Below are positions 5,290-31,078 of a stretch of DNA of 64,000 nt, one piece after another (positions within the stretch are counted from its first letter, which is position 1; each line of letters starts with the position of its first letter). Below the pieces are notes generated by a model that ran no database searches, was not told the origin of the DNA, and was given only the letters and a program-made list of their open reading frames with translations. Location of the stretch: NCBI RefSeq assembly GCF_016908275.1, contig NZ_JAFBDN010000001.1, positions 62,001 through 126,000 on the forward strand. The letters are read 5' to 3'. The DNA comes from Periweissella beninensis. Its GTDB lineage: Bacteria > Bacillota > Bacilli > Lactobacillales > Lactobacillaceae. Made by a program: the position numbers and the translations under genes.

Positions 5290-5320
5290 AATGTCGTCCT
5301 CCTTTTTAGTTGTCTTGTGT

Positions 5321-5455: not shown

Positions 5456-5491
5456 AAAAGGGACTAAATTTGTTGAAATTCAGTCCCTTTT
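5456..5491 (-). terminator. Rho-independent terminator of the double-GNAT gene
   Basis: AAAAGGGACT(A/G)AATTT arms (5456-5471 and 5476-5491) with a GTTG loop and a T-rich minus-strand tail. Confidence 0.8.
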
Positions 5492-5530
5492 ATTCGTTTA
5501 TTTGCAGTGGGCATTAGCCCAGTTAATCCT

Positions 5531-6421: not shown

Positions 6422-6440
6422 CCTTTTTTCCTTATCTAAA

Positions 6441-7799: not shown

Positions 7800-7944
7800 A
7801 ATACTTACCTTCCATAAAATATGTTAGTACGCCCCCAAGTTCATACTTTCTCTCATAATGGTAACATATTTGTAACATTATGTGGTTCAACCATTCTTAA
7901 ACTTTTTTGTATTTTATTTTAATTTATTGAGGAATATTTAGGCT

Positions 7945-9054: not shown

Positions 9055-9059
9055 CTTCA

Positions 9060-9329
9060 CTATTTAACTAAGTTAGCCATACTGTAATAGCTATAAACTA
9101 GCATACCAATAATCACAAGGATGACGATAAAGGTTACAAAAATTTGAAACTTTAACGCGCCATGGCGTGGTGGCCGAGGTGGTCGGCGATGCCGTTGGCG
9201 TGGTACTTGTCCGGGCCGTTTTGGACGCTGGGTACGGTTTGGGTGCATCTCTTGATCAACTGGCGCATGACGTGGTACGTGTCTTGTGCGTTGTAGTTGC
9301 TGCGCTGATTGTCGTTTTGACTTCTCCAT
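9060..9329 (-). CDS. Small Arg/Pro-rich single-pass membrane protein
   Basis: The 89-residue product has a strongly basic, disordered N-terminal part (residues 1-58, rich in Arg, Pro, His and Gln) followed by one transmembrane helix (about residues 61-83, FQIFVTFIVILVIIGMLVYSYY) and a short tail. A cytoplasmic basic tail before a C-terminal anchor fits an N-in membrane peptide that may contact nucleic acid or lipid head groups. I do not recognise a family. An overlapping frame starting at 9340 is less likely because it lacks the helix. The gene converges with the transporter gene, 5 bp from its stop. Confidence 0.55.
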   Translation of the reverse strand: MEKSKRQSAQQLQRTRHVPRHAPVDQEMHPNRTQRPKRPGQVPRQRHRRPPRPPRHGALKFQIFVTFIVILVIIGMLVYSYYSMANLVK

Positions 9330-9473
9330 AATTTAAGCATCCTTTCTATGAGTACTAATTACTTAATTATACACAACCGTTACAAAAGAGGTGGCGTAAA
9401 ATGATTTTTTTACCATAAATTAGAACTATCCGCCGTTTACATTGGGCCATCCAAAAGAGCTAGTAGCCTTCTT

Positions 9474-9508
9474 AAAAAGGGCTGAATCTGATAGATTCAG
9501 CCCTTTTT
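9474..9508 (-). terminator. Rho-independent terminator of the mntH-usp unit
   Basis: Perfect stem AAAAGGGCTGAATCT with its complement around a 3-base loop. Both flanks are A/T runs, so it can work on both strands. Confidence 0.9.
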
Positions 9509-9551
9509 GCACGTGTTATCCAAAATTAATTTAAGTGTTCATTTTCAACAT

Positions 9552-9998
9552 TTAGCGAACTACCATTACCGATATCGGAGCATGCTTCACAATATGGGCC
9601 GCCGTTGAGCCAAGTCGTTTGGCAATGCCTTTTTTCGTTTCGGACCCGATTACCACTAAATCAGGTTTAACCATTGGGATGAGCTCATTAACGAGTGTTT
9701 TGGCAGCATCACCTTCCGCATAAACGACTTCAACGTCACTAAGACCGGCGTTCAAGGCATCTTGCTTGTAGCGGGCCATATCATCGACAATATCAGCCCG
9801 GATATCGAGCATTTTTTCCTTATCTAAAATTGTAATCGCTGAAATTTCATCACTTTCTAAAACGGTCCCAATCACTAACTTAGCACCATCAAGTTTGGCG
9901 GCGTGAATTGCGTAGTACAATGCTTTTTGGGCATCGGCCGTATCATCTACACCGACTAAGATTATTTTGGGTGTTACCACTGCTTCTGAAACCTTCAT
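9552..9998 (-). CDS. Universal stress protein (UspA family)
   Basis: The 148-residue protein has the Usp fold with a start IILVGVDDTADAQKAL (the Asp after the first strand contacts the adenine) and the ATP-binding C-terminal motif G-2x-G-9x-G(S/T), visible as VIGSETKKGIAKRLGSTAAHIV. It therefore probably binds ATP. The ATG at 9998 follows GAGGTGG by 8 bases; the GTG at 10010 is inside that site. It lies 36 bp behind mntH, and a shared transcript suggests a link to metal or oxidative stress, although Usp proteins have no single defined reaction. Confidence 0.88.
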   Translation of the reverse strand: MKVSEAVVTPKIILVGVDDTADAQKALYYAIHAAKLDGAKLVIGTVLESDEISAITILDKEKMLDIRADIVDDMARYKQDALNAGLSDVEVVYAEGDAAKTLVNELIPMVKPDLVVIGSETKKGIAKRLGSTAAHIVKHAPISVMVVR

Positions 9999-10046
9999 CT
10001 TAATATCCACCTCATTTTCTATCGTCCTGACTACTAACTACGGATT

Positions 10047-11408
10047 TTAGTTAAACCACCCACTAATTAAGCCCGGTAGTCCGTATAAGTCAAGGCCAGT
10101 TAAGATGAGCACCGCTAACCAACCTAGGGCCGTAATCCATTTCGAATTAACATATTCACCCATGATTTTCTTAGATGAAGTGAACCAAACAAGCGGAATC
10201 ATTGAGAATGGTAGCGCAATTGATAGGAAAACTTGTGAATTAATTAATAGGTTATCTAAGGCCCCTTCTTTACCACCGTACATAATGGTTGCGATTAAAA
10301 CTGGAATAATTGATAGTAGCCGGGTGATCAAACGACGCGCCCAGAGTGGCATCTTCAAGTGAATAAATCCTTCCATAATAACTTGTCCCGTTAGTGTTCC
10401 GGTAATCGTTGAGTTTTGACCAGAAGCTAATAACGCAATCGCAAAGAGCATTGAAAGGATGGGTGAGGCAATCGCCCCGGCCAGTTTATTATCTTGTAGC
10501 GCATTATATAGTGCGCGGAAAGTATCAAGCCCATCGCCGTGGCCAAAGAACATCGCTGCCCCAACCAGTAATAGTAGCACATTAATAATAAAGGCCCCAG
10601 TTAATTGAATATTTGAGTCCCAAGCAGAAAAGCGGACAGCTTCTTTAATTTCAGCTGGATCGTCATGATTGATTTTTCGTGTTTGTGAAATTGATGAGTG
10701 TAAGTATAAGTTATGGGGCATTACCGTCGCACCAATAATCCCTAAGGCTAACGTCAACGCACCCCCATCAGTTATAATTTTAGTGTGGGGAATTAGGTTA
10801 GTAGCCGTAGCTCCTAAATCAGGTTTAGCTAAAAAGACTTCATAAGCAAAAACGAGTAAAATAACCGCGATTAGCGTTACCACAATTGCTTCAATTTTCC
10901 GGAAGCCTAATTTAGTTAATAATAATAGCAGTAAAACATCTAAAACGGTTAAGCTAACCCCGATAACCAAAGGAATGTTGAACAGCAAGTTCATCGCAAT
11001 CGCACCACCGATAACTTCCGCAATATCCGTCGCCATAATCGCTAATTCAGTTAAAATCCATAAAATAATTCCGACGGGTTTATTGACATGTGATCGTGTT
11101 GCTTGCGCTAAATCAAGTTGTGTGACAATTCCGAGTTTTGCGGCCATGTATTGTAATAACATCGCAATTAAACTTGATAGTAAAATCACTGATACTAACA
11201 AATAACCATATTTGGCCCCCCCAACAATTGAAGTAACCCAGTTACCGGGATCCATGTACCCAACGGCAACTAACGCACCAGGTCCGGAAAAAGCAAATAA
11301 TTTTTTCCAAAAACTGGCATCCTTTGGTACTTTGACACTACTATTAATTTCTTCAAGACTAGCGCCATTGGCTGTCTTAAATAGTCCTTGACTCTTTGAT
11401 GCTTCCAT
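10047..11408 (-). CDS. mntH: NRAMP-family manganese:proton symporter
   Basis: The 453-residue protein has eleven or so membrane segments and both metal-site motifs of NRAMP transporters: DPGN in TM1 ([15 protein letters not shown]) and the TM6 motif [13 protein letters not shown]. It imports Mn(II), and sometimes Fe(II), with protons. Lactic acid bacteria accumulate Mn(II) as an antioxidant. GAGGATA precedes the ATG. It is divergent from a DtxR/MntR-family regulator 284 bp away, which supports manganese-dependent repression, although I could not find a clean operator palindrome in the spacer. Confidence 0.95.
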
Positions 11409-11640
11409 ACGTATATCCTCACAATCTATTATTAGCCTGAGTCTGTCTGGCTTGAACTTTAATTAGTGTACGCCTGTTATTTTTTAAAGTCAAAAGTTTT
11501 TTAAGTTGGTGAAATTTTTTAGTTTAATTAAGGCGTAAAATTTTTATTCATAAATCTTTAAATTTTTCATCACTAACTAAAATAAGTTTTTATTTTCTAT
11601 TTATATAATTATTTACGAATCAGCGGATTATCCTTAATTA

Positions 11641-11649
11641 TGCTATAAT
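11641..11649 (+). promoter_or_regulatory. Extended -10 promoter of mntR
   Basis: TGCTATAAT with no clear -35, 44 bases before the ATG. AAGGAAGA serves as ribosome binding site. Confidence 0.6.
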
Positions 11650-11692
11650 GAACGTGTCCATCGGAATACTATAGATGTAAGGAAGACTTATT

Positions 11693-12352
11693 ATGGCTGA
11701 ATCCGTCTCAAAAACCCTTTATTTGCAAACGATTCTTGAATTAACTGGAGGTAGTAACGAAACCCAGGTCCCTAATAATCAAATCGCAGAACATTTACAT
11801 GTTACCCCTTCGTCAGTATCTAATATGATGACCAAACTCCAAGAAACCGGTGAAGTTGAAGTCGAACCATATTATGGTGTTACTTTAACTTCCAAGGGGC
11901 GCATGACTGCTTTAAAACTGATTCGCGCTCACCGTTTATTTGAAGTATTTTTATATGATAAATTAAACCTATCTTCTTCGGAAGCCCATATGAATGCTGA
12001 TAACCTCGATCACGATGCGGACGAAAAAATGATTAATCAACTAGAACTCTTTCTTGATAATCCAACAACTTGTCCCCACGGTCTCGTAATTCCTGATAAA
12101 CAATACCACTATCATGCCAAGCATTTTAAACGCTTAACCGAGATAGCCGATGGTACTACTTTTAAAATTAATAGTTTTACGGAAGATTTAGAACTTTTAA
12201 AATATCTTGAGTTAGTCGATTTAACATTACATTCACAATGGCAACTGGTCGAACGCTTACCCTTTGAAGGACCCTTAGTTATCGAAAATTTAACCACGCA
12301 TCATAAAATTCAAATTACCCAACACGCTGCCAATTATATCTTCGTTGAATAG
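11693..12352 (+). CDS. mntR: DtxR/MntR-family metal-dependent repressor
   Basis: The 219-residue protein has the three DtxR-family parts: a winged helix (QIAEHLHVTPSSVSNMMTKLQETGEVE), a metal-binding dimerisation domain (about residues 75-135, with LIRAHRLFEVFL and TTCPHGLVIP) and a C-terminal SH3-like domain. Compared from memory with DtxR and MntR, the His-Glu ancillary ligands remain (HRLFE and the His before MNAD). The primary-site glutamates read Asp-x-x-Asp-His (DNLDH) instead of Glu-x-x-Glu-His, and the residue equal to DtxR Met10 or MntR Asp8 is Leu. Divergent orientation to mntH makes it the probable manganese sensor for that gene. Confidence 0.87.
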   Translation: MAESVSKTLYLQTILELTGGSNETQVPNNQIAEHLHVTPSSVSNMMTKLQETGEVEVEPYYGVTLTSKGRMTALKLIRAHRLFEVFLYDKLNLSSSEAHMNADNLDHDADEKMINQLELFLDNPTTCPHGLVIPDKQYHYHAKHFKRLTEIADGTTFKINSFTEDLELLKYLELVDLTLHSQWQLVERLPFEGPLVIENLTTHHKIQITQHAANYIFVE

Positions 12353-12388
12353 CGTGCTAAATTAGGTAGCGCATAGCATAAATAAACT

Positions 12389-12426
12389 AAAAAGAGGACT
12401 GAACGTATGCGTTCAGTCCTCTTTTT
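12389..12426. terminator. Bidirectional Rho-independent terminator
   Basis: Perfect 16-bp stem AAAAAGAGGACTGAAC (12389-12404) with 12411-12426 around a 6-base loop, between convergent mntR and the ABC permease gene. Confidence 0.92.
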
Positions 12427-12431
12427 GTCTG

Positions 12432-13118
12432 TTAATTATAGTCTAGGTGTTTTTCTAAGTGGCTCTGGCCCCAAGTAATCAGTGAACAACACGCCCAATA
12501 TACTAACGCAATTTCAATGTAAATTGTCATATAATCAAAATTACGGCCGGCTACAATTTTAGCATGCATAAACATTTCTGACACAGTAATCATCGCTGCT
12601 AACGATGTCCCCTTAAACAAATCTAAAATAACGTTGCCTAACGCGGGAATTGCGATTCTTAACGCCTGCGGAAAAATTATATAACGAATAATTTTAAAAT
12701 ATGGCATCCCCAAAGATTTCGCGGCATCATATTGACCTTTATCAACCCCTAGAAATGCTGACCGAAATATCTCGGATACAAACGCTGCCCCATTTAAAAT
12801 AAATGCCAAAGCAGCGGCACTAAACGCTGGAATTTGATAATTAGCATATGGTAAACCAAAATAGATTAAAAATAAAATAACTAGAATTGGGGTTCCCCGC
12901 ATAAAAGAAATATACGTACGCGTTATGCCAAAAATCAACTTTTTTTTACTCATTTGACCAAGCGTCAAAATAAAACCTAATATTAACTGACCAATAAAAC
13001 TTACAATCGTTAATTCAATGGTTAATGGTAAACCTTGTAAAATATAAGGCAATGAATGCCAAGCTAATGGTGCATTAAAAAAATTTGGTACTGATAAATG
13101 AGCAATTAACTGATCCAT
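12432..13118 (-). CDS. Amino-acid ABC transporter permease (HisM family)
   Basis: The 228-residue protein has about five membrane helices and the EAA loop that docks on the ATPase (YDAAKSLGMPYFKIIRYIIFPQALRIAIPALGN), typical of polar amino-acid importers of the HisMQ/TcyL type. It begins 16 bp behind the binding-protein gene, so the two form an operon. No ATP-binding subunit follows; the transcript ends at the terminator just downstream. The ATPase must be encoded elsewhere or shared with another system. Confidence 0.9.
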   Translation of the reverse strand: MDQLIAHLSVPNFFNAPLAWHSLPYILQGLPLTIELTIVSFIGQLILGFILTLGQMSKKKLIFGITRTYISFMRGTPILVILFLIYFGLPYANYQIPAFSAAALAFILNGAAFVSEIFRSAFLGVDKGQYDAAKSLGMPYFKIIRYIIFPQALRIAIPALGNVILDLFKGTSLAAMITVSEMFMHAKIVAGRNFDYMTIYIEIALVYWACCSLITWGQSHLEKHLDYN

Positions 13119-13134
13119 ATCGCATATCCATTTC

Positions 13135-14013
13135 CTAATTTTTTAAGGTAAATGTTTTAGCAATGTGGACCGTTGGTTTATGAGTAACATCGGCCCCATC
13201 ATAGTACTTTTCAGAAATTTTCTTAATTGTGCCATCTTTCAACAATTTTTTAAGTTCCTTATTAACTGCTGTTTGTAGCGCTGTATTTTGCTTCTTCATC
13301 AATACGCCACTGCCCGCCGATGTATCACTAACTTGGAAATATAAATTTTTAGGAATTGTTAGTTGTTTACTAGCACCTGGAATTGCTCGAATAGCCATTC
13401 TTTGTAAGTAATAATCATTCAAAATTACATCAAGGCGACCATTTTCGACATCACGAATATAAACATCATTAGCAACATTGTCATAATTTACCGCTTTAGC
13501 CCCGATTTGCGTGGCTAAACGTTGATAACCAGTGCCAGCTTCACCACCAGCTTTTTTACCCTTCAAATCTGCAAAGCTATGAATCCCGGATTGATCTTTT
13601 TTACGAACAATCATACTATTGAATGAATATTTATAAGGTATTGATAAAGCAAATGTTTTTTTGCGTTGTTTTGTGATACCATAATCGTTGACCGCCATAT
13701 CAGCAACACCTGAGTTAACTGCATTTAGAGTTGCTGACACATCAAGCTCTTTGAATTTAATTTTTTTGTTTAACCCTTTAGCAACGGCTCGCGCAATATC
13801 AACATCATAACCTTCCAATTTATTGTCAGTTCCATGATATGATGTTGGGAAAAGCGTACCTGATGTTGCTACCACGAGAGTTTTCTGTTTGGCTAATTTA
13901 CTAGCTGAAGTTGCGTTATTACTCTTTTTAGCACCACATCCGGCTAAAACCACTGAAAATGCTAATAATAATGTAAAACTGATTATCCAAAATCGCTTAA
14001 CTGGTCTTCTCAT
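13135..14013 (-). CDS. Amino-acid ABC transporter substrate-binding lipoprotein
   Basis: The 292-residue protein has a lipoprotein signal (hydrophobic segment followed by VLAGC, Cys at residue 26) and an SBP_bac_3 fold. Recognisable parts are LVVATSGTLFPTSYHG, LEGYDVDIARAVAKGL, SGVADMAVNDYGITKQRKK and FADLKGKKAGGEAGTGY. It would sit on the outer face of the membrane and deliver a polar amino acid to the permease encoded behind it. Substrate specificity (cystine, glutamine or other) cannot be read from the sequence. The gene is divergent from an amidase gene (126 bp), which may supply amino acids from amides. Confidence 0.9.
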   Translation of the reverse strand: MRRPVKRFWIISFTLLLAFSVVLAGCGAKKSNNATSASKLAKQKTLVVATSGTLFPTSYHGTDNKLEGYDVDIARAVAKGLNKKIKFKELDVSATLNAVNSGVADMAVNDYGITKQRKKTFALSIPYKYSFNSMIVRKKDQSGIHSFADLKGKKAGGEAGTGYQRLATQIGAKAVNYDNVANDVYIRDVENGRLDVILNDYYLQRMAIRAIPGASKQLTIPKNLYFQVSDTSAGSGVLMKKQNTALQTAVNKELKKLLKDGTIKKISEKYYDGADVTHKPTVHIAKTFTLKN

Positions 14014-14139
14014 ATTTCGATACCCCTATAATTGTCTTGTATACTTAAGCACAATATTATTCTATTATTATGTAAGCTCTTTTACAAGCTTTTTGAAATT
14101 TAATTTATATATCTATTAATTTATGACTGGAGAAATGAA

Positions 14140-15615
14140 ATGGTTTTCGATGCAACTGAACTTGCCCATTTAATTCAAACAAATCAACTATCACCCTTAG
14201 ACGCCGTTGATGATACTTTAAACAAAATTACCGAGTTAAATCCGATTTTAAATGCTGTTACCCACGTTCGTGAGCGAACTGATATTTTAGCTGATATTAC
14301 TAAAATGCCTAAATCAGCCCCCTTTGCTGGTGTTCCAATTTTATTAAAAAATCTTGGCCAATCATTGGCTGGTTTGCCTAATACAGCTTCTTCACGGCTT
14401 TTTAAAGATACTATCGCTAACCATACTGATAATTACGTTGCCGCATTACAACGAGCTGGTTTTATAATTGTCGGTAATACTAATGCCCCAGAATTTGGGT
14501 TTAAAAATATCACTGATCCTAGCTTATATGGTGCTACACGTAATCCTTGGCAAACTGACTTCTCAGCCGGCGGTTCTTCTGGTGGTAGCGCCAGTGCTGT
14601 TGCTGCAAATATAGTAACTTTAGCGGCCGCTAGTGATGGTGGCGGATCAATTAGAATCCCTGCTTCTTTTAGTGGCCTGATTGGTTTGAAACCAACACGC
14701 GGTCGAGTTCCAGTTGGGCCAGCCGGTTGGCGTGGTTGGCAAGGTGCATCAATTAATTTTGCAGAAACACGTTCAATTCGTGATACAGCTAAACTATTAG
14801 ATCAACTACAAGTCATCCAGCCAGCTGCGCCTTTTCAAACCCCGTTGATTACTCCTAGCTCTAGTTACTTTTTAAATCAGCCCTTAAAATCAGATTTTAA
14901 AGTTGCCTATACCCTTAAGTCGCCCGTTAATACCCCCGTTAGTGCAGATGCTCAAACCGCAGTTTTAAACGCTGTTACATTTTTAGAAGACCAAGGTATC
15001 AAAACCGTTGAAGTTGATAATTCACTTCCTGGTAAAGAATTAATGATGAGTTATTATATTGTAAATGGTGGCGAAACGGCTAGTATGTTTGCTGAAATTG
15101 AACGACACCTAAACCGACCAATGACAATAGCTGACATGGAACTAACTACTTGGGTGATTTATCAAGCTGGAAAAGGCATCACCGCAAGTGATTATAGTCA
15201 AACATTAGCTTTATGGGATCAAGCTAGTTTTCAAGCCAATCAATTTTTCGATAACTATGATGCCTATTTAATGCCCACAACAGCTACTACGGCTCCAGCA
15301 ATTGATGCCCAGTTGATTGACAATGCAACACAATTAAAAATGCAGCATGTCACTGAACTAAGTCACCAAGATCGACTAGATTTAGTCTATGATTTTTTTG
15401 CTGACAGTCTCGCTTTGACTCCCTTTACACAACAAGCAAATTTAACTGGTCAACCCGCTATTAGTTTGCCAACCCACATTGCTAAAAATGGGCTACCTTT
15501 GGGTATTCAATTTACTGCCCGTAAAGGCCAAGAAGCCACACTCCTCCAAATTGGTAAATTATTCGAAGATCATGCTAAGTTCAAATTGCTTGATCCGACT
15601 ACTATCATAAAGTAA
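14140..15615 (+). CDS. Amidase (amidase signature family)
   Basis: The 491-residue enzyme carries the amidase-signature core. By family spacing the Ser-cisSer-Lys triad is Lys70 (PILLKNLG), Ser146 (in SAGGSSGGS) and Ser170 (DGGGSIRIP). The Gly/Ser-rich stretch GSSGGSASAVAAN and GLKPTRGRVPVGP are also typical. Such enzymes hydrolyse amides to acids plus ammonia. The best relatives by general appearance are broad-range bacterial amidases rather than GatA, because there are no gatB or gatC genes and the C-terminal part differs. It is transcribed alone, divergent from the amino-acid ABC genes. Confidence 0.88.
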   Translation: MVFDATELAHLIQTNQLSPLDAVDDTLNKITELNPILNAVTHVRERTDILADITKMPKSAPFAGVPILLKNLGQSLAGLPNTASSRLFKDTIANHTDNYVAALQRAGFIIVGNTNAPEFGFKNITDPSLYGATRNPWQTDFSAGGSSGGSASAVAANIVTLAAASDGGGSIRIPASFSGLIGLKPTRGRVPVGPAGWRGWQGASINFAETRSIRDTAKLLDQLQVIQPAAPFQTPLITPSSSYFLNQPLKSDFKVAYTLKSPVNTPVSADAQTAVLNAVTFLEDQGIKTVEVDNSLPGKELMMSYYIVNGGETASMFAEIERHLNRPMTIADMELTTWVIYQAGKGITASDYSQTLALWDQASFQANQFFDNYDAYLMPTTATTAPAIDAQLIDNATQLKMQHVTELSHQDRLDLVYDFFADSLALTPFTQQANLTGQPAISLPTHIAKNGLPLGIQFTARKGQEATLLQIGKLFEDHAKFKLLDPTTIIK

Positions 15616-15785
15616 ACCTAGTCAAACAAACGGCTGTGCCAAAACTACTTTTTTAGAATAAATGCTGTAAGCATGTGTTTCAAAAATCAAATCATTCCAT
15701 TAATACACAAAAAAATACTAATTGTTGTTTAACTGCACTGATGAATACATTGTGCGTAGTTTAAATTTTTTGATCAGTAAATACA

Positions 15786-15820
15786 AAAAATCGCCAACTC
15801 GAACCTTGAGTTGGCGGTTT
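15786..15820 (-). terminator. Rho-independent terminator of the MFS gene
   Basis: Stem AATCGCCAACTC with GAGTTGGCGGTT (15788-15800 and 15808-15820) and a minus-strand T run. The rest of the 297-base gap before it holds no gene. Confidence 0.8.
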
Positions 15821-15912
15821 AACTTAATAAATGACCTTATTTACAGATTTAGGTCTAGCAGTAACATATGACTTATCAATTTTTTTGTATTACCATATTA
15901 TAACCTTTGGAA

Positions 15913-17145
15913 TCAAAGATCTGTAATGGTGTTCTTTTTACACACAACCACGATTAAAATTCCAAATAAAATTGTTAATGCTCCAGTTAATTGCCATAAA
16001 ATTAAAGTTTTAGTACTAATCCAAGCAGCTAAGTAACTAATAACTGAAAATACTGCAAAGGTTGAAGTTGTTAAGGCGTGCATTGATGATATATCACCGA
16101 CATTAAATGAGCGATACATTAGTTTTTCAAAGACGTTTCCTGACATTCCCATTACAATTCCTGCAAGTAATAATAGAATTAAACGTAACATGTTGGGAAT
16201 TGGTAATGTCACGCAGATAAAACAAATTCCTGAAATGATGTAATCACAAGCAAAAAATGTTGGTGCATTCCATTTTACAAGTGGAGCTAACGCACTACCA
16301 GCCAAATCGCCGACTTGTTGTACTGCATTCACTATTGCGAATAACCCTACTGCTAAACCCAGTTCCTTCATAGTTAATGGTAATAATTCAAACAGCAAAC
16401 CGGTTATACCACCTAAAATTGCTTCAAATAAAATAATCAAAAATGCAGGTAGCGTATGAGTAAATTGATATAACGAATTTTTCATTTGTTTGAGGTAAGA
16501 ATATGTTACTTCATCATCACTTGGTGCTATAAGTTTGAGCGATTCATCGTATTTTATCATCCAATAGAACACGATACCGATAGGTGCACTAAGACAGCAA
16601 ACAAGTAGCAGCCAAGTACTACCATGTACCATTAAAATTAATGAACTAATAATACTTATAATAATAACAACACTTGAACTCATAAAATATTGAAAATCAA
16701 CAGATTTTTCAATTAATTCTTCATTTTCTTGAAAAATAACTGGAATAAAGCCGATTTCAATAGATCCTGAAATGGTGATTACTATGCTTAATAGCAAATA
16801 TAATATTCCTATCTCTAGTAACCTACTATGACTTAGCAATAACCCAGTGCTCACAAAAATAATTAATGTTTCTAATATTTGTAATTTAATCAATGCTTTT
16901 TTATTATTTTTAATGTTATTTAATGATGGTGCAAGTAACATAATCAATGCTTTTGGAAATGCTGCTAAAATGCCAAAAATAGCCAAAATTCGTGCCGTAG
17001 CATGATATTGTTGTACTAGTAAATAAAGTAAAACAGTTGTATAAATACTAAAAGCAATCAATAAAAATGCTTGACCCATAACTAGTTTAAAAATGGTTTT
17101 ATTGATCTTTTTTTTAAATATCATAAGTAAGAACATCCCATCCAT
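15913..17145 (-). CDS. Major facilitator superfamily transporter of unknown substrate
   Basis: The 410-residue protein has about twelve hydrophobic segments in two halves with a central charged loop (near residues 205-225, IKYDESLKLIAPSDDEV). The arrangement and length are those of MFS proteins, although the usual motif A (GxLaDrxGrr) is not clear. The start could be 17145 or the ATG seven codons later (MIFKKK), and neither has a strong ribosome binding site. It stands between terminators and its role cannot be inferred from its neighbours. Confidence 0.7.
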   Translation of the reverse strand: MDGMFLLMIFKKKINKTIFKLVMGQAFLLIAFSIYTTVLLYLLVQQYHATARILAIFGILAAFPKALIMLLAPSLNNIKNNKKALIKLQILETLIIFVSTGLLLSHSRLLEIGILYLLLSIVITISGSIEIGFIPVIFQENEELIEKSVDFQYFMSSSVVIIISIISSLILMVHGSTWLLLVCCLSAPIGIVFYWMIKYDESLKLIAPSDDEVTYSYLKQMKNSLYQFTHTLPAFLIILFEAILGGITGLLFELLPLTMKELGLAVGLFAIVNAVQQVGDLAGSALAPLVKWNAPTFFACDYIISGICFICVTLPIPNMLRLILLLLAGIVMGMSGNVFEKLMYRSFNVGDISSMHALTTSTFAVFSVISYLAAWISTKTLILWQLTGALTILFGILIVVVCKKNTITDL

Positions 17146-17439
17146 ATCTATTTAGATTGCTATTATCATATTTCTTAGTCCCGTTAAAATGATAATTAAA
17201 TAATAAGTAAATTTTGGTATACGTTGTATTGACGGTTACCGTAACGCCCGTAATTAGATACCATAACTCGCATATTTTTATTATCTTAGCATAATTTAAT
17301 TAATTAAAAAAGCGTTTTTTAATTAATTTTTAATTTTATACTAAAATTTATCAGTGGCAATAAGAGTTGTTCGCGGGGACGATTTATACCGAATAAAAGA
17401 AATCTCAAACTTCGAAAAAAACCAATTAGTAATCGAATT
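17146..17439. other. AT-rich intergenic stretch
   Basis: About 290 bases between the MFS gene and the kdsA-operon terminator. It contains the MFS promoter region and poly-A/poly-T tracts but no coding frame or RNA structure that I can support. Confidence 0.5.
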
Positions 17440-17495
17440 AAAGAAAAATTGGATGGCATATGTCCGGTTGAATTCCAGAACCACGCCATCCAATT
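17440..17495 (-). terminator. Rho-independent terminator of the kdsA operon
   Basis: AATTGGATGGC (17447-17457) pairs with GCCATCCAATT (17485-17495) around a 27-base loop, followed on the minus strand by TTTTTCTTT. Confidence 0.75.
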
Positions 17496-17574
17496 AATCG
17501 CTTAAAACATCACTCCAATTTATGGAAGTCAGTTCAAACATGCTTTTTTTGTATTGTATTCATTATTCAATTTG

Positions 17575-18531
17575 CTATTCTAAAACATCATGAATTGTCA
17601 CAATTCCAACTACTTCACCAGTATCATTTAAGACTACTAGGTTTGAGATATTATGATTAGCCATCTTACGCCAAGCATCCCGATTTTGCTCATTTTCATT
17701 AACGCTAATAAAGCCGTATGTCATATAATCCTTAGCAACCGAACCCTTAACTCCTGATATATCCAAAAATTTTTTCCGAATATCACCATCCGTCACAATC
17801 CCAATAACATCATCACTACTACTTTTAACTAGTGTAATCCCGATACCATAATCACTAATACGATAAATAACATCATTAATCGGCGTGTCTTCATGAACAT
17901 ACGGAATTTTAGAATGCATAACATGTTTAATTCTTTGTAAGAGTATCTTACCAATTGAACCACCTGGATGGTAAAGCGCAAATTTTTCTTTACTAAAGGC
18001 AATGGCTTCTTCTAAAGCAACCAATAAGGCATCCCCCAAAACCAACGTAGCTGTTGTTGAAGTTGTTGGTGCCATACCAGTTACATCAGCTTCACTAGCA
18101 TTACCAATATTTAAGACGAATTGCACATTTTTCCCCAATGTTGAGTTAGGATTCCCTGTCATGGCAACCGTTGCTAATTGATCCTGGTGAATATGCTGTA
18201 AAGCTAACATTGCTTGAATAACTTCTTGTGTTTCACCACTGTTAGAAACAAAAATTGCCAGATCATCTTTAGCAACACGCCCTAAGTCACCATGATACGC
18301 AACCCCGGCATCAATTGAAAAACTAGGAATCCCAATTGATGATAGTGAAGCTGAGATTTTATCGCCAATAATCCCTGATTTTCCAATTCCTATAAATACA
18401 ATTCGGCCGTTTAATGCTAATATTTCTTCGACTACGGCATCAAACTGTTCATCAAGACTATCTCGTAGTTTTTCCAAGGCGGCAATTTCTATACTAAAAG
18501 TTTTTTGCGCGCTTTTATAGTAGTCCGTCAT
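17575..18531 (-). CDS. kdsD: D-arabinose 5-phosphate isomerase, KpsF/GutQ (KdsD) type
   Basis: The 318-residue protein has an SIS sugar-isomerase domain (residues about 35-180, with IGIGKSGIIGDKISASLSSIG and VSNSGETQEVI) followed by two CBS domains (about 200-318). This is the full KdsD/KpsF/GutQ architecture and length. The enzyme converts ribulose 5-phosphate to arabinose 5-phosphate, the substrate of Kdo8P synthase. The ATG at 18531 lies behind GGGAGG with 9-base spacing and overlaps the end of kdsA by 17 bases. The longer frame to 18564 is not needed. Translational coupling to kdsA makes the Kdo-precursor role more likely than a sorbitol (GutQ) role. Confidence 0.92.
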   Translation of the reverse strand: MTDYYKSAQKTFSIEIAALEKLRDSLDEQFDAVVEEILALNGRIVFIGIGKSGIIGDKISASLSSIGIPSFSIDAGVAYHGDLGRVAKDDLAIFVSNSGETQEVIQAMLALQHIHQDQLATVAMTGNPNSTLGKNVQFVLNIGNASEADVTGMAPTTSTTATLVLGDALLVALEEAIAFSKEKFALYHPGGSIGKILLQRIKHVMHSKIPYVHEDTPINDVIYRISDYGIGITLVKSSSDDVIGIVTDGDIRKKFLDISGVKGSVAKDYMTYGFISVNENEQNRDAWRKMANHNISNLVVLNDTGEVVGIVTIHDVLE

Positions 18532-19366
18532 CAGCAAAAGCCTCCCGCATTTCTCGACTTTCATGGAATAATTTATTAGCAGCCGTTAGAATAGGTCGAA
18601 TTTTACTTAATTCTAATTGGCTATCTTGATCAGAAATCGCTTCTGCCGGATTAGGGTGAACTTCAGCAAAAATTCCATCAATCCCAATTGTTAACGCTGC
18701 TCGTAAAAGAGGAAAAGCATACTCACGATTACCACCAGAATGATTACCATAACCACTTGGAATCTGAACTGAGTGGGTTGCATCAAAGATAACCGGGTAG
18801 TCTAGTGACCGCATTTGAATCAAGCTCGTCATATCGACCACCAATTGGTGATAGCCAAACATCGTACCACGTTCGGTAACTAAAATTTTATCGTCTGAAG
18901 CAGCAACTTTTTTAACAGCTGATTGCATGTCTTCGGGTGCCATAAACTGAGCCTTTTTTATATTAACAACTTTACCAGTTTTAGCAGCCGCCAACAATAA
19001 ATCCGTTTGCCGACTTAGAAAGGCTGGAATTTGTAAAACGTCAGCTACTTGGGCAACTGGTTCACATTGATATGATTCATGCACATCCGTTACAATCGGT
19101 ACATTATAAGTATCTTTAATTTTTTTAAGTACAGCTAAGCCATTCTCAAGTCCAGCCCCCCGACTAGAATCAAGTGAACTTCGATTAGCCTTATCAAAAG
19201 AAGATTTGAAAACAAAATTAATGCCAAGTTCATCAGTTAATTCTTTAAGCGTCTGCGCTACTTGGGCACATGTTTCATATGATTCAATTGCACAGGGGCC
19301 TGCCAGTAGTGTTAATTGATCATCTTTAAAACCAAACTCTTTAAATACTTCTGAAATTTTTGCCAT
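18515..19366 (-). CDS. kdsA: 3-deoxy-8-phosphooctulonate (Kdo8P) synthase
   Basis: The 283-residue enzyme condenses phosphoenolpyruvate with arabinose 5-phosphate to Kdo 8-phosphate. Diagnostic parts are LLAGPCAIES near the N-terminus, FKSSFDKANRSS (residues 53-64), the DATHSVQIP strand and GNHSGGNREYAFPLLRAA. The metal ligands of the class II (metal-dependent) enzyme, as in Aquifex aeolicus, are all visible: Cys25, the His of DATHS, the Glu of FAEVHP and the Asp of AISDQD. The start at 19366 (MAKISEV) lies 8 bases behind GGAGGG. Kdo is a hallmark of Gram-negative LPS and some capsules, so a kdsA-kdsD operon in a lactic acid bacterium points to a Kdo-like acidic sugar in a surface polymer. 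No kdsC, kdsB or transferase gene lies nearby. Confidence 0.95.
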   Translation of the reverse strand: MAKISEVFKEFGFKDDQLTLLAGPCAIESYETCAQVAQTLKELTDELGINFVFKSSFDKANRSSLDSSRGAGLENGLAVLKKIKDTYNVPIVTDVHESYQCEPVAQVADVLQIPAFLSRQTDLLLAAAKTGKVVNIKKAQFMAPEDMQSAVKKVAASDDKILVTERGTMFGYHQLVVDMTSLIQMRSLDYPVIFDATHSVQIPSGYGNHSGGNREYAFPLLRAALTIGIDGIFAEVHPNPAEAISDQDSQLELSKIRPILTAANKLFHESREMREAFADDGLL

Positions 19367-19429
19367 TTCCATACCCTCCATAATTGTTGGTCTAGCACAA
19401 ATACTCTAATGCCGTTAAATGTTACGATT

Positions 19430-19438
19430 ATTTTAGCA
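19430..19438 (-). promoter_or_regulatory. Extended -10 promoter of the kdsA operon
   Basis: TGCTAAAAT on the minus strand, about 64 bases before the kdsA start codon. Confidence 0.5.
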
Positions 19439-19477
19439 TTCTTTTATTAAAAAACGTTAATTTTTGCTTACATTTTA

Positions 19478-19520
19478 CTATTTTTACCTCTATTTAGACA
19501 TTAAATAGAGGTAAAAATAG
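19478..19520. repeat. Perfect 19-bp inverted repeat upstream of kdsA
   Basis: CTATTTTTACCTCTATTTA (19478-19496) is followed after 5 bases by its exact reverse complement (19502-19520). It lies about 40-85 bases upstream of the kdsA -10 and just behind a separate terminator. It lacks a terminal T run, so an operator role is possible. Confidence 0.7.
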
Positions 19521-19522
19521 GC

Positions 19523-19566
19523 AAAAAAGCATACTAATTGTTAATTAATAATTAGTATGCTTTTTT
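19523..19566 (-). terminator. Rho-independent terminator
   Basis: Perfect 17-bp stem (19523-19539 with 19550-19566) of the AAAAAAGCATACTAATT type with a minus-strand T run. It ends transcription from the truncated gene at 19862. Confidence 0.88.
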
Positions 19567-19646
19567 GGTGCATTATCAGGATTGGTTAGCTTTTAAAACA
19601 CGTTCTTGCGTAATTTAACCTAACACAATTAGTTATACACTATTCT

Positions 19647-19862
19647 TTAATTACCTATGATTTTATTACCAGCTAATTCTGCACGGTACTTTTCGATAAT
19701 TCCTGCGACGGCAGGATATGGTACAGCAAATACTACGATATCACCAAGAGTTGCAACTTGATCATTTTCTGCAACAAATGAAACTGTGTTACCGGCATCT
19801 TCAAAGTTACTAGCAATTGCTTTACCCATGTTACCTTTACCAAAAACGCTAATGTTTGACAT
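19647..19862 (-). pseudogene. Truncated NADPH-binding (F420 reductase-like) protein
   Basis: The gene has a strong ribosome binding site (AAGGAGA) and begins MSNISVFGKGNMGKAIASNF, the Rossmann GxGxxG motif of the NADPH-dependent F420-reductase-like family common in lactobacilli. After the second strand region (GDIVVFAVPYPAVAGIIEKYRAELAGNKII) the frame stops at residue 71, where full relatives run on with an ITNPL motif to about 190-220 residues. The sequence behind the stop contains only a short possible C-terminal scrap. A 3' deletion is the simplest explanation. A stable mini-protein cannot be excluded because promoter, start and terminator are intact. Confidence 0.65.
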
Positions 19863-20044
19863 AATTTAAATCTCCTTTTTACTTACTATTTGTTAGTTAT
19901 TACTATATCACTTACTTTATAAAAGTAAATCCTTTTTTTAAACTTTCTTTTTAAAAAATTAAATTATTTTACAAACGTCATAAATTACGATAAACTTTTT
20001 TAGTGTTGTCTTTTCTAAATCAATATTAAGGGAGGAAATTACAA

Positions 20045-20569
20045 ATGTATTTTTCAAAAGCAACTGACGCTGAATTAAACACAATCCTAAAAATTCTTCG
20101 TGACGGCCGGGCACAACTAGCTGAAGCCGGTGTTGATCAATGGCAAGGTGATTACCCGAATGTTGAACAAATTAAAGAAGATATAAAAAACGGCCATGCC
20201 TATTTGTTTAACGCCGATGATCATGCCACTGTAGGTTGTGTCGCAATTACTAGCGCTCCCGATAATGTCTATGACACTATGGATGGTAAATGGTTGATTC
20301 AAACCGACAATTATTTAACAATTCATCGCTTTGCAATCCTTTCAACCCATGCTGGTAAAGGATATGCAACAACTTTGTTTAAGCAATTAATTGCTCATAT
20401 CACTGCTGAACATCCTGAAATAGATAGTTTACGGATTGATACTCATGTCGATAATAAAGCTATGCAACATTTAATTACTAAAATGGGCTTTACGCATGTT
20501 GGTGATTTAAATGGGGTTTACCGCCATAATGATAAGTGCTATGTTTACGAACAAGTAATTAATCGCTAA
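20045..20569 (+). CDS. GNAT family N-acetyltransferase
   Basis: The 174-residue protein has a GNAT fold: an N-terminal helix pair, the strand LTIHRFAILSTHAGKGYATTLFKQL with an acetyl-CoA loop (the usual Arg/Gln-x-x-Gly-x-Gly/Ala is here THAGKGYA), and NKAMQHLITKMGFTHVGDL at the C-terminus. The substrate is unknown. GGGAGGAAA gives a strong start 6 bases before the ATG. It is divergent from the truncated Rossmann gene and converges with the chemotaxis receptor gene. Confidence 0.85.
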   Translation: MYFSKATDAELNTILKILRDGRAQLAEAGVDQWQGDYPNVEQIKEDIKNGHAYLFNADDHATVGCVAITSAPDNVYDTMDGKWLIQTDNYLTIHRFAILSTHAGKGYATTLFKQLIAHITAEHPEIDSLRIDTHVDNKAMQHLITKMGFTHVGDLNGVYRHNDKCYVYEQVINR

Positions 20570-20646
20570 CGGCTTAATTACTCATCCTTATTGTAAGCAT
20601 TCTAACTAGGCATAGTAAAGTAATAACATATTAAATTAAAACTAAT

Positions 20647-20686
20647 AAAAAAAGAATCTGTCTATCGGTTAGTCAGATTCTTTTTT
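20647..20686. terminator. Bidirectional Rho-independent terminator
   Basis: AAAAAAGAATCTG pairs with CAGATTCTTTTTT (20648-20660 and 20674-20686), between convergent GNAT and chemotaxis receptor genes. Confidence 0.88.
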
Positions 20687-20695
20687 ATTATATTC

Positions 20696-22753
20696 TTATT
20701 TTTCAATTTCGAAGCGATTAGTCAGTTTTTTTAATTCACTAGCAATCTTTCTGAGACCATCGACATTATTTGTAAATTCATCCATTGTCGCTAACACTTC
20801 TTCAGAATTAGCTGAAACTTCCTCTGTCCCAGCAGCATTTTCTTGCGTTGAAGCCGCTACATTTTCTAATTTAGCCAATACTGAATCTTGAATATTTTCA
20901 ATTTCTGCACTAGCCGTTTCAACTTCATTAATGGCTGTAAGCATTGATTGATTCCGCACAAGAACTTCTTTTGAAGATGCTTGTGCTTGTTCAATTAACA
21001 TTGACTGCATCTTACCACCGGCTACAGAGTTAGTTGTTTGTTCAACCATTGCGCTTGATTTAGTACGAATTTGTTCAATTATGATTTCAATGTCTTTAGT
21101 TGAGTTTTTGCTTTGCTCAGCTAGTTTTCTAATTTCACTTGCAACCACCGCAAAACCTTTACCAGATTCACCAGCACTAGCTGCTTCAATTGAGGCATTT
21201 AAGGCTAATAAATTAGTTTGCCGTGAAATATCATTAATCACACTGATGATTTTATTAATATTTTGAATATCTTGATTCATTTCATCCATACTATGCATTA
21301 AGGCCGTCATTTTAGCTAATTCATTTTGCCAATTTTCATCAACCCCACCCGTAATTTCCATGTTTTGTGTACTGATTTGCGCAGCCTCTTGGGTTTGGCT
21401 ATTCATTGTTGCAACATTGGTATGTAATAGTTGGACGACCTCTGCTAACTGTTGCACCTGTTGCACACTGTTAGCTGTATCTTGCGCTTGACTACCAGTT
21501 ACTTCCGCAATTCCTGTAATTGTTTGGGCAACTTCTTCAGTTGCTTTGTCAGTTTGTTGTGATAATTCATATAGCTCATCTGCACTTTGCGCAACATTGA
21601 TGCTCTGCTTTTGAACATGATTAATTGCTACCCCAATTGATTTGATTGTTTGATTATAATGATAAGTCAATTTTTGTAGTTCATGCCCATTAACTTCGCT
21701 AGTTAGTAATTTGTTAGTTATTTTATCACTAAACTGCGTTGCATTAAATTTTTCAGGATCCGTTGAGTCAATTGTTGCAAATTTACCGCTACCTGCCATT
21801 GCTAAATAATGACTAAAGCGACCAATAATTTTATCGATTATGCGGGTTACTATAATTGCAAATATGATTGCCACAGTACCTAAAATTAATGCGATAACTG
21901 CCGCGAATAGATATAGCGCATGCTCTTCTTGTTTTAAATCAGTTCGACTAACAGCTGAGATTGCCCATACTTGATTGCCCTTGCTTCCCTTATCGTAGTA
22001 AGTGGTTTCGACCTTACTAGCTTTGTTAGGTAAAACATGTCCTTTAACTTTACTAGTTGTTGCAATCTGCTTAAACGTATTGGTATTTTTTATATTTTTA
22101 CCAATAAGCGCTTTTCGGCGCGACGCAATTACAATCCCATCACTGGAAACTAACATTACATTACCAGTTCGCCCAACTTTTAAATTTTCAACATTTTTTT
22201 GTAAATTAGTATAGGCTATATTAAATGAAATAACTCCGGCATTGCCGTCTTTATCATGGATTAATTTAGAAACACTAGTTATATAATTACCCGTATTTGC
22301 ATCTTTATATGGAGTAGAAAAAGCTATTTTTCCAGGCTGATTATTAGCGCCAACATACCATGGTCGTTTTACTGGATTAAAATTATTCGGTAAAGTGGTA
22401 CTGGTTGCAACATACTTTGCATTCGACATACCAAAAATAGCGTGATTAATAATACTATTTTCTGCCTGAGCTTGTGTAATTATTTGTTTAATTCTTTTTA
22501 AATTGAAATTCTTTGAACTATCAAATACTTCATTACTGAGCATTCCATTTATTGCTTGTTTAGCAGACATTTTAAGGTCAACGTCACTTTGTGCTAAATT
22601 AGCAGCCGCTGCTTGATTAGCAACATTATTACGCTGTATTAATAGCTGCCGTGTAGTTGCATATGAACCTACGACCATTATTAATACTGGAATAACGACT
22701 GCTAAAAACAAAGTTACAATAATTCCACGATTTAAACTTTTCTTTCTTACCAT
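20696..22753 (-). CDS. Methyl-accepting chemotaxis protein with dCache-type sensor
   Basis: The 685-residue receptor has TM1 (about residues 10-32), a periplasm-type sensor region of about 240 residues with the dCache look ([39 protein letters not shown]), TM2 (about 280-305), a short HAMP-like stretch and a long helical signalling domain. The hairpin tip is classical: [40 protein letters not shown]. It would signal to CheA/CheW, which are not in the window. No CheR-binding pentapeptide ends the protein. The ATG at 22753 follows AGAAGGG, and the longer frame to 22798 has no site. Chemotaxis receptors are rare in lactic acid bacteria and imply motility genes elsewhere. Confidence 0.93.
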
Positions 22754-22810
22754 ACTCTTAAAACCCTTCTGACATTTTTTGAAAACGATTACGAACACTT
22801 ACTATTAATG

Positions 22811-22836
22811 TTATCGGAAAGATTTTAAGTAATTTA
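22811..22836 (-). promoter_or_regulatory. Sigma-28 (SigD/FliA)-like promoter of the chemotaxis receptor
   Basis: On the minus strand TAAA (22836-22833) is separated by 14 bases from TCCGATAA (22818-22811), close to the SigD consensus TAAA-N14-16-GCCGATAT. The predicted start lies about 50 bases before the ATG. Confidence 0.55.
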
Positions 22837-23102
22837 AGATTAATGTTTTTAAAATAGCTTATATAATATTTAAATGGTATTTCATGCATAAAACTAACTT
22901 CTAAAATGGCATTTAGGTTCTGTTTTCGCATAAATTGAGCGTCCATCATAAAAAGCTCTGTGAAATAATACGAACACTGGTCCGTAATTACATCAGCAGA
23001 GCCGCATTGTTAAACTAGCATTTGGGGCGTTACACGCGTATTAACGGGCTTCACCGACCAATTTTTTAAGTGCTATATTTAGCTAACCATTACCAAAAAT
23101 GA
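22837..23102. other. Intergenic stretch without recognised gene
   Basis: About 265 bases between the chemotaxis receptor promoter and the menE stop. I see no terminator for menE, no supported coding frame and no repeat. Confidence 0.5.
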
Positions 23103-24557
23103 CTAACTAAATGTTCTTTGATATAACGTGCGTAGCTTATGGCGTTGGACTTTGCCACTCGCCGTTGTTGGTAACTTTTCAAGTTGGATAAATGTTTTGG
23201 GCACCTTATAATGGGCTAAATGTTCGCGGCCATATGCAACTAACTGTTGTTCATCAAAAACACCGGCTTGTGCTACGACATACGCCACTGGTATTTGGCC
23301 CCATTGAGGATGTTCAACCCCAATTACACTGATTGCTTGGATATTTGCGTATCCATTATAAACATGTTCAATCTCATCTGGAAAAATATTTTCACCACCT
23401 GAGATAAACATATCATCGTCGCGCCCTTTGACGTATAAAAAGCCTTCATTATCCAAATAACCTAAATCACCAGTTCGATACCAGCCATCTGCCGTCAGCT
23501 TTTGCTTGAAGGCCGCTTGATCACCAACGTACCCAGGGGTTATATTAGGCGCTTTAATTTCAATGGCTCCTACTTGGGTAATCGGAGCTTGTACTCGCAA
23601 TTGGACGGGCATTAGAGGTTTGCCTGCCGAACCAATTTTATGTGAGGCGTCAGCAAAACTCAAAGCAACAATCTGAGAAGCACTTTCAGTCATGCCATAT
23701 GATTGAATAACTGGTAGCGCCATCTTTTGACATTGTGCTAAGGTCGCCTTATCAATTGGGCCGCCACCTAATAAAAATGTTCTAAATAACTGGTTATAAC
23801 CACTAGCCGGATAACATGCTAAAAGTCGCTTAAGCATCGTGGGAACAACTGACATAATTGTTATGGGTTCGTTGCATAATAAGGCTGTCACTTCAGCCGT
23901 ATCAAAATGATTTACGAGTTGAACCGGCATCCCATACACCAAGCTGCGCATCATAATTGATAACCCACTAATGTGAAAAAGGGGGACTGCACACAACCAC
24001 CGGTCCGTCGGCGCAACTCCTAGATTAAGAGCAGAGCCAATTGCTGAGTAGAAATGATTATCAAAGGTTTGCTTAACGCCGTGGGGATTACCGGTCGTAC
24101 CCGAGGTATACATTATCGAGGCAACATGTTTCGGAGCAAACTCTTGGCTAATTTTAGGTTGTGCTACTCGCGTTATTAAAATATCAGCCAATTGATAAGT
24201 TGGGCGGGCTAAAGCTCCCCATGCTACTTGATATTTTTTTAAATGATCATCTACAATTACGGTCTGAACGTTAGCATCAATTAATTGACGCCGTAATTCA
24301 TCCCCGGCTAACCGATAATTCAACAATACTGGTACTACGCCAAGTTGTTGTAGGGCTAAAATTAATTGGTAGCTTTCCGGGCGATTGCTAACTAAAATCG
24401 CAACGCGCTTTTCTTTTTGCAACTGTAAACTAGTCAACTGACCAGCTAGCCGATAGACTGTACGTTGTAACTCACTAAAAGTCCAGCTTTGCTTGCCCGC
24501 TATTAAAGCTAGGCGGTGTGGTACTAAATTTGCTTGTTTACTTAACCAATTTTGCAT
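23103..24557 (-). CDS. menE: o-Succinylbenzoate-CoA ligase
   Basis: The protein (484 residues from MQNWLSKQAN) is an adenylate-forming ligase: the phosphate-binding loop is MYTSGTTGNPHGVKQT, then QSYGMTESA, YRTGDLGYLDNEGFLYVKGRDDDMFISGGENIFPDEIE and the C-terminal catalytic Lys in TTASGKVQRHK. It activates o-succinylbenzoate with ATP and CoA for naphthoquinone formation in the menaquinone pathway. Its position directly behind menB (the first possible ATG at 24572 overlaps the menB stop) fixes the assignment over other acyl-CoA ligases. The start at 24557 matches the usual MenE N-terminus, and the ATG at 24572 remains possible. Confidence 0.93.
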   Translation of the reverse strand: MQNWLSKQANLVPHRLALIAGKQSWTFSELQRTVYRLAGQLTSLQLQKEKRVAILVSNRPESYQLILALQQLGVVPVLLNYRLAGDELRRQLIDANVQTVIVDDHLKKYQVAWGALARPTYQLADILITRVAQPKISQEFAPKHVASIMYTSGTTGNPHGVKQTFDNHFYSAIGSALNLGVAPTDRWLCAVPLFHISGLSIMMRSLVYGMPVQLVNHFDTAEVTALLCNEPITIMSVVPTMLKRLLACYPASGYNQLFRTFLLGGGPIDKATLAQCQKMALPVIQSYGMTESASQIVALSFADASHKIGSAGKPLMPVQLRVQAPITQVGAIEIKAPNITPGYVGDQAAFKQKLTADGWYRTGDLGYLDNEGFLYVKGRDDDMFISGGENIFPDEIEHVYNGYANIQAISVIGVEHPQWGQIPVAYVVAQAGVFDEQQLVAYGREHLAHYKVPKTFIQLEKLPTTASGKVQRHKLRTLYQRTFS

Positions 24558-30627: not shown

Positions 30628-31078
30628 TTAATTTTTGTTTCTTAATAACTTAGCCTGTTTAACATCGGCAGTTGTTGATGTACCAGCTAGTTGCATATCA
30701 ATTAACAATTCATGATTTAATTCATTAATTACTGATGCGACGCCGCTAGCGCCACCTAAAGCTAACCCATAAATAACTGGTCGTGCTAAGGCAACTAAAT
30801 CAGCACCACTGGCTAAAGCTTTAAAGACATGCGAGCCACGCCGAACACCACTATCAAAAATAATTGGTACCCGGTGGTTAACTGCTTGTGCGATATCATG
30901 TAACACATCAAAGGCTGCAGGCCCACCATTTAATTGACGGCCACCATGATTTGAAACATAAATACCTTGTGCACCAGCACCGATTGCTAGTAATGCATCT
31001 TCTGGTAATTTCATCTGCTTAGTGCATAGCGATGTAAGTTAAAACATGCGTTGCATCACTTAATTGTGTATTTGCCAT
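30628..31078 (-). pseudogene. Internally deleted L-lactate oxidase-type flavoprotein
   Basis: An AGGAGGG site and ATG at 31078 start a 19-codon frame ending at TAA. One base out of frame, sequence coding for the C-terminal third of an FMN-dependent alpha-hydroxy-acid oxidase follows: LPEDALLAIGAGAQGIYVSNHGGRQLNGGPAAFD, VPIIFDSGVRRGSHVFKALASGADLVALARPVIYGLALGG. The SNHGGRQ segment carries the catalytic His and Arg. About 240 residues are missing between the start and this part, so FMN binding cannot form. The intact enzyme would have oxidised lactate to pyruvate with oxygen and made hydrogen peroxide. The 128-codon frame from 31014 is a remnant, not a start. Confidence 0.85.

Follow-up and report, generated by a model that had tools for sequence, protein, structure and literature searches.

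A kdsA-kdsD gene pair shared among Lactobacillaceae may yield Kdo8P as a soluble end product

Kdo is regarded as a Gram-negative envelope marker, and the pathway that supplies it for LPS in these bacteria comprises kdsD, kdsA, kdsC, and kdsB. What use might the first two of these enzymes have in a Gram-positive lactic acid bacterium? The question is raised by a 64,000-nucleotide stretch of the Periweissella beninensis genome (NZ_JAFBDN010000001.1, positions 62,001 to 126,000; hereafter, the window), in which kdsA and kdsD lie side by side. From the sequence of this locus, it had been predicted that a class II Kdo8P synthase is coupled to an arabinose-5-phosphate isomerase and that their product could be an acidic octulosonate within a capsule or a teichoic-type polymer, or that Kdo8P could be put to another use. 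A conserved, mobile, and shortened kdsA-kdsD pair in food-associated lactic acid bacteria would imply either a use of Kdo that does not involve CMP-Kdo or the existence of unrecognized activating enzymes. Our literature search, which covered CC-licensed PMC text, listed no paper that by its title or abstract opening deals with the pair in lactic acid bacteria. In a microbiome gene table, kdsA is read as an LPS gene, as exemplified by PMC11678924.

The kdsA-kdsD locus and its predicted enzymes

Both genes are encoded on the reverse strand (Table 1). kdsA reads from an ATG at 19366 to a stop at 18515 with a GGAGG ahead of the ATG, and a longer automatic frame extending to 19381 is disfavored, since its start falls on the ribosome-binding site. 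kdsD reads from an ATG at 18531 to a stop at 17575, shares 17 nt with the end of kdsA, and has a GGAGG of its own. Based upon this overlap and the internal GGAGG, the two genes are likely to be translationally coupled. An Rfam search of window positions 12000-24000 yielded no family over threshold, and between 17100 and 20050 there are 17 promoter-like sites against a shuffle mean of 13.7 (sd 4.8) and no terminator-like sites against 1.5 in shuffles.

Table 1. Features of the kdsA-kdsD locus, in window coordinates
Feature	Position	Strand	Basis
kdsA, metal-dependent (Cys-type) Kdo8P synthase, 283 aa	18515..19366	-	family cut-offs, aligned residues
kdsD, SIS + CBS-pair arabinose-5-phosphate isomerase (KpsF/GutQ family), 318 aa	17575..18531	-	TIGR00393, alignments
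kdsD ribosome-binding region (GGAGG), within kdsA 3' end	18532..18551	-	sequence
kdsA ribosome-binding region, GGAGG 8 nt ahead of ATG	19367..19385	-	sequence
Intergenic region upstream of kdsA, promoter by inference only	19382..19640	-	motif and Rfam searches

KdsA scores over two NCBIfam cut-offs (TIGR01362, 364.7 versus 314 bits; NF003543, 384 versus 242), under the PRK12457 equivalog cut-off (284.9 versus 457), and far under that of the DAHP synthase model TIGR01361 (113.2 versus 267.75). When aligned to the Aquifex Kdo8P synthase 1fwn (E 5e-85), it retains the positions C11, H185, E222, and D233, which we take to be the metal ligands in Aquifex numbering, together with KANRSS, presumably an arabinose-5-phosphate motif as opposed to the KPRT-type motif of DAHP synthase. 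The four ligands and the K, N, and R of KANRSS are invariant in all 32 sequences compared (30 genomes plus two plasmids). KdsD scores over the TIGR00393 cut-off (237.3 versus 203.7) and under the E. coli KdsD and GutQ equivalog cut-offs. Alignments to 2xhz, 5uqi, and 3k2v indicate that it keeps the positions K59, E111, E152, and H193, which we assume to be the catalytic residues in E. coli numbering, and its CBS pair matches 3k2v and 3fna. E111, E152, and H193 are kept in 32 of 32 sequences and K59 in the 31 where it is readable. The original prediction of a complete kdsA with four visible metal ligands and an overlapping kdsD was therefore borne out, in that a full 283-aa frame has its ligand positions in agreement with 1fwn and both members of the overlapping pair exceed their family cut-offs. 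At the level of sequence, 18515-19366 is confirmed as a metal-type Kdo8P synthase gene and 17575-18531 as an arabinose-5-phosphate isomerase gene. Judging from their families and conserved residues, KdsD would convert ribulose-5-phosphate to arabinose-5-phosphate, from which KdsA would form Kdo8P with PEP.

Distribution, descent, and mobility of the pair

Matches to TIGR01362 over cut-off were found in 30 of 397 sampled Lactobacillaceae genomes, including that of P. beninensis itself, and a further 128 of the 397 had weaker matches only (at most 131 bits). Within Periweissella, one of five sampled genomes encodes kdsA; among the other carriers are members of Weissella, Leuconostoc, Oenococcus, Ligilactobacillus, Lentilactobacillus, and Schleiferilactobacillus, with Oenococcus oeni, Leuconostoc gelidum, and Weissella paramesenteroides among the species represented. 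Of the 80 contigs among the matches listed, 14 are from Lactobacillaceae and encode proteins 69-81% identical to the P. beninensis KdsA, while none of the remaining 66 exceeds 61%.

Exactly the same 30 of 397 genomes have TIGR00393 matches spanning at least 238 of 268 positions. Other Lactobacillaceae have SIS-only relatives of the KpsF/GutQ type, which share the SIS part of TIGR00393 but span just ~153-166 positions, whereas every kdsA-linked KdsD spans at least 238. Such short matches (E <=1e-30) occur in 10 non-carrier genomes, three of them over cut-off, and one carrier (G329) has a single additional copy of this type. To compare gene order, 29 neighborhoods were fetched (seven of them shorter than 20 kb due to contig ends) and analyzed along with a 20-kb portion of the window. 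All 30 contain both kdsA and kdsD, while the next homologous cluster is found in 12. Their open frames overlap in 29 of the 30 loci, the exception being L056, with an early break in the kdsD frame. A full-length KdsD is encoded by 28 of the 30 carriers; the frames of the other two, G347 (a draft of 890 contigs) and G337, are broken as read and cover 238 and 242 positions. The pair may thus be dispensable in some strains, or these two frames may have been misread.

Both genes have low dN/dS ratios: the median for kdsA is 0.040 (range 0.015-0.157, 32 pairs) and that for kdsD is 0.058 (range 0.015-0.226, 30 pairs, two broken frames included), as calculated from pairs with dS of 0.05-1.5 that are not independent of one another. 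These values bear upon the possibility that kdsA and kdsD are the decaying remnant of a formerly complete Kdo pathway and have no present use. A relic would account for the patchy distribution (30/397 overall and 1/5 in Periweissella) as well as the two broken kdsD frames, but median dN/dS values of 0.04-0.06, active sites that are invariant in 32 sequences, and transfer between replicons all speak against it, and we regard decay as very unlikely.

In the KdsA tree, the 32 Lactobacillaceae sequences form one clade (100/100) with a long stem, as judged against every second non-Lactobacillaceae contig from L087 to L151, 31 of 33 of which passed the length filter. Weissella sequences fall among three Leuconostoc lineages, suggesting exchange between genera, and the P. 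beninensis sequence is sister to that group. The KdsA and KdsD distances are correlated as well (r 0.86 over 435 pairs, a value reached in 0 of 2000 permutations), in an analysis that excluded the loci of the two broken kdsD frames. Evidence of mobility is found on plasmids, for which 110 records match. Two of these exceed 60% identity, Leuconostoc citreum NZ_CP042415.1 and Leuconostoc mesenteroides NZ_CP143439.1, and both carry the adjacent pair. Over 1805 bp, a Leuconostoc chromosomal locus (L046) is matched at 98.56% identity by the L. citreum copy and at 97.56% by that of L. mesenteroides. The match between the L. citreum plasmid and L046 extends from 17 nt before kdsA to the final codons of kdsD, and the flanking sequences on either side are unrelated, which indicates that the pair travelled without companions. 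Among 50,697 phage records, 14 match at E <=1e-5 and none has at least 60% identity.

Later Kdo genes and the shikimate pathway

As originally noted, kdsB, kdsC, and transferase genes were not seen in the window, and the same pattern extends to the genome as a whole, as far as family searches reach. The P. beninensis assembly (1.84 Mb, 62 contigs, completeness 100) has no match to KdsB (TIGR00466), to the CMP-sugar-synthetase family PF02348, or to the KpsC/S-type Kdo transferase family PF05159, nor any KdsC over cut-off, its two weak HAD matches scoring 25.6 and 20.1 versus 106.95 bits. A genome devoid of downstream Kdo genes had been named as part of what would count against the original prediction, and as far as these searches go, that of P. 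beninensis is such a genome. Among the 30 Lactobacillaceae carriers, KdsC over cut-off and PF05159 are each found in 0/30, with two to nine weak matches to the KdsC model (HAD proteins) per carrier. Whereas TIGR00466 was searched in the P. beninensis genome, the broader PF02348 was applied to 64 genomes (30 carriers and 34 non-carriers). It matched in 15 of the 30 carriers (at most 25.5 bits) and 15 of the 34 non-carriers; all matches are partial and none exceeds 26.7 bits. Four matching proteins, all from carriers, were examined, and they comprise three GlmU proteins and one IspD/TarI-type cytidylyltransferase (G250). The remaining matches are mostly in open frames of ~460 aa, like GlmU. In comparison to the Gram-negative Kdo pathway, the carriers therefore share the first two enzymes, complete with catalytic residues and KANRSS, but differ in having neither KdsC over cut-off nor KpsC/S, while KdsB is absent from the P. 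beninensis genome and represented in other carriers by weak, partial family matches.

The situation is different elsewhere in the class Bacilli, where KdsA is found at E <=1e-60 in five of 398 genomes, i.e. that of P. beninensis and four outside the Lactobacillaceae. All four of the latter have KdsC over cut-off, three have PF05159 (one weak at 37.2 bits), and in all four loci (L170-L173) kdsD, kdsC, and a CMP-transferase homolog lie beside kdsA. This homolog is KdsB by NCBIfam in two, whereas in the other two the transferase-like protein is a fusion with weak matches only, one of them to PseF. Likewise, among the 66 non-Lactobacillaceae contigs listed, many of which are truncated, 35 have a kdsB homolog within ~6 kb, 39 have kdsC, and nine have kdsD. 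Our search methods evidently do detect the later Kdo genes where these are present. L170-L173 thus resemble the Lactobacillaceae loci in being Gram-positive and having kdsA with kdsD, but they differ in their KdsC, their CMP-transferase homolog, and the surface or flagellar genes around them; the Lactobacillaceae pair stands alone. In L171 (G729, 5122-13319), kdsA-kdsD-kdsC and the fused transferase-like protein follow a few genes after flagellin-like genes (assigned by eye), an arrangement that suggests a ulosonate on flagellin.

Two further Gram-positive systems offer useful comparisons. The Streptomyces plasmid NZ_CP108746.1 carries a kdsA-SIS-kdsB cluster, which also places kdsA beside a SIS-domain gene, but here kdsB is present, P450 and terpene synthase genes are nearby, and KdsA is only 45.5% identical. 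The Kdo island of Bacillus coahuilensis m2-6 is reported to have kdsA, kdsD, kdsB, kdsC, and kpsC (PMC4744853). As described there, it is similar to the Lactobacillaceae loci in that kdsA and kdsD occur together in a Gram-positive organism, but the Lactobacillaceae pair is found alone and its KdsA belongs to a separate clade.

A different pathway altogether was considered as well. KdsA is the sole PF00793 protein in the P. beninensis genome, which nonetheless encodes chorismate synthase and neighboring late shikimate genes, and this suggested KdsA as a stand-in for DAHP synthase, serving aromatic amino acid synthesis in cells that otherwise lack this enzyme. DAHP synthase activity in enzyme assays had also been named as one finding that would count against the original prediction. 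However, the distribution of DHQ synthase speaks against such a role. A second PF00793 protein is found in 21 of the 30 carriers, all 21 of which have a DHQ synthase match, while the nine carriers with KdsA as their only PF00793 protein (G000, G029, G058, G065, G089, G095, G121, G144, and G329) are all without one. Among the 34 non-carriers, PF00793 and DHQ synthase are both present in 29 (G182 having partial matches) and both absent in five. Consequently, KdsA never completes a shikimate pathway in this 64-genome sample. Chorismate synthase is matched in 27 of the 30 carriers, and the three without even this match, the KANRSS motif, and the constant pairing with KdsD are similarly at odds with a DAHP synthase. 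Genome content, as judged from PF00793, DHQ synthase, and chorismate synthase matches, therefore makes this activity appear improbable in the extreme. The late genes of P. beninensis are located at G000:C4:4763-8909 (L153) and consist of aroC, aroA, tyrA, and aroK with a chorismate-mutase-like tail (all but aroC assigned by eye). With late shikimate genes but no DHQ synthase match or other PF00793 protein, the late pathway may use imported shikimate or quinate.

Neighboring genes and the fate of the product

Among the 30 loci, no glycan genes recur beside the pair, although a polysaccharide pyruvyl transferase gene is located directly upstream of it in one Oenococcus locus (L034). The original prediction thus stands with respect to the class II KdsA, the coupled KdsD, and the Gram-positive host, whereas the capsule or teichoic fate of the product gains no support from either the neighborhoods or the P. 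beninensis genome, in which the known enzymes (KdsB, PF02348, PF05159) are absent and KdsC is represented by weak matches only. Kdo8P might still feed a surface polymer via enzymes unrelated to KdsB, KdsC, and KpsC/S. One such route would combine a promiscuous HAD phosphatase with an unrecognized cytidylyltransferase; another would be an IspD/TarI-type activation at the 8-phosphate, giving phosphodiester-linked Kdo. Gram-positive bacteria plausibly use ulosonates, and the four other Bacilli do have KdsC and a CMP-transferase homolog by kdsA, three of them with KpsC/S; the weak HAD matches of each carrier, the IspD/TarI-type cytidylyltransferase of one examined carrier, and the pyruvyl transferase gene in Oenococcus would fit such a route as well. 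Weighing against it are the missing KdsC and KpsC/S (0/30), the weak and partial KdsB-family matches, the lack of recurring glycan genes, and the movement of the pair by itself between Leuconostoc replicons. We favor a soluble product and consider a surface polymer, which would need unrecognized enzymes, somewhat unlikely.

The genes that do surround the pair vary by lineage, with Pfam assignments having been made for one member per cluster. In the six Weissella loci, the pair lies between luxS-like and pyrimidine genes (named by eye), while the Leuconostoc copies are near GlsB-type, SDR, PNPOx, aldo-keto reductase, ClC, or Fur/ZnuA genes, depending upon the lineage. Four of five Oenococcus loci have a regulator-like gene of one cluster downstream, followed by a pyruvate phosphate dikinase-like gene (by eye); the L036 member of this regulator-like cluster has CBS and HTH domains. 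Within 250 nt upstream of the 30 kdsA genes, we found no shared CtsR, CIRCE, cre, or PerR box, the best full-box matches having two to five mismatches and a few genes having bare CtsR half-sites. The Oenococcus arrangement raises the possibility that the pair acts through its substrates, either draining or buffering pentose phosphate and PEP or setting the level of an arabinose-5-phosphate or Kdo8P signal. That KdsA is strictly paired with an isomerase bearing CBS domains would be in keeping with this, as would the proximity of a putative regulator and a putative PEP-forming dikinase, but that neighborhood is confined to one genus and no motif is shared upstream of kdsA. Accordingly, we judge an action through substrates to be improbable.

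Several inferences can be made regarding a soluble product. Firstly, two apparently intact enzymes that are always paired, conserved, and moved together imply that the Kdo8P reaction is worth having, either alone or with host factors. Secondly, the known families we searched would not take Kdo8P to CMP-Kdo or a glycan, which is the reason for proposing Kdo8P or free Kdo as the useful product. We therefore tentatively view kdsA-kdsD as a mobile two-gene module with Kdo8P, or perhaps free Kdo, as its soluble end product, a proposal that we would place somewhat short of an even chance. It is favored by the strict pairing, the absence of a third conserved gene, the missing later genes, the low dN/dS, and the mobility of the pair. 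Conversely, a non-homologous activating enzyme or transferase would escape family searches, the one clear pair-only move took place within a single genus, Leuconostoc, and a required third gene might have been present in the recipient beforehand, and the distribution is patchy (30/397) with two broken kdsD frames. An ordinary host HAD phosphatase could release free Kdo from Kdo8P, and the resulting product would be a soluble, acidic 2-keto sugar that either stays inside the cell or is exported.

A new soluble role for Kdo8P or free Kdo, unrelated to any envelope polymer, is possible but doubtful. Such a role might include, for example, stress protection, metal binding, or signaling. To our knowledge, there is no precedent for either compound as an end product. 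If true, the pair would represent a portable two-gene trait giving octulosonate a soluble function in lactic acid bacteria. Our leading guess is stress tolerance, prompted by the GlsB-type, SDR, PNPOx, ClC, or Fur/ZnuA genes near the Leuconostoc copies and by the Asp23/AmaP/GlsB genes carried on both Leuconostoc plasmids. However, this guess draws upon neighbors that differ between genera, and no stress-regulator box is shared.

Several other genes of the window's reverse strand were also noted. Just upstream of the kdsA intergenic region, a 71-aa frame (19647-19862) matches NADP oxidoreductase (F420-dependent) and glycerol-3-phosphate dehydrogenase profiles solely in their N-terminal part and is perhaps a truncated gene. 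The protein encoded at 20696-22798 matches methyl-accepting chemotaxis models, though below their cut-offs; a match of this type would not ordinarily be expected in lactic acid bacteria but fits a motile genus like Periweissella. Further away, a 128-aa frame (30628-31014) resembles by eye an FMN-dependent lactate oxidase-type enzyme, but over its C-terminal part only. At 31157-34775, an ABC transporter ATPase, permease, and binding protein lie beside two small secreted proteins (by eye), a group that looks like an iron or heme uptake system.
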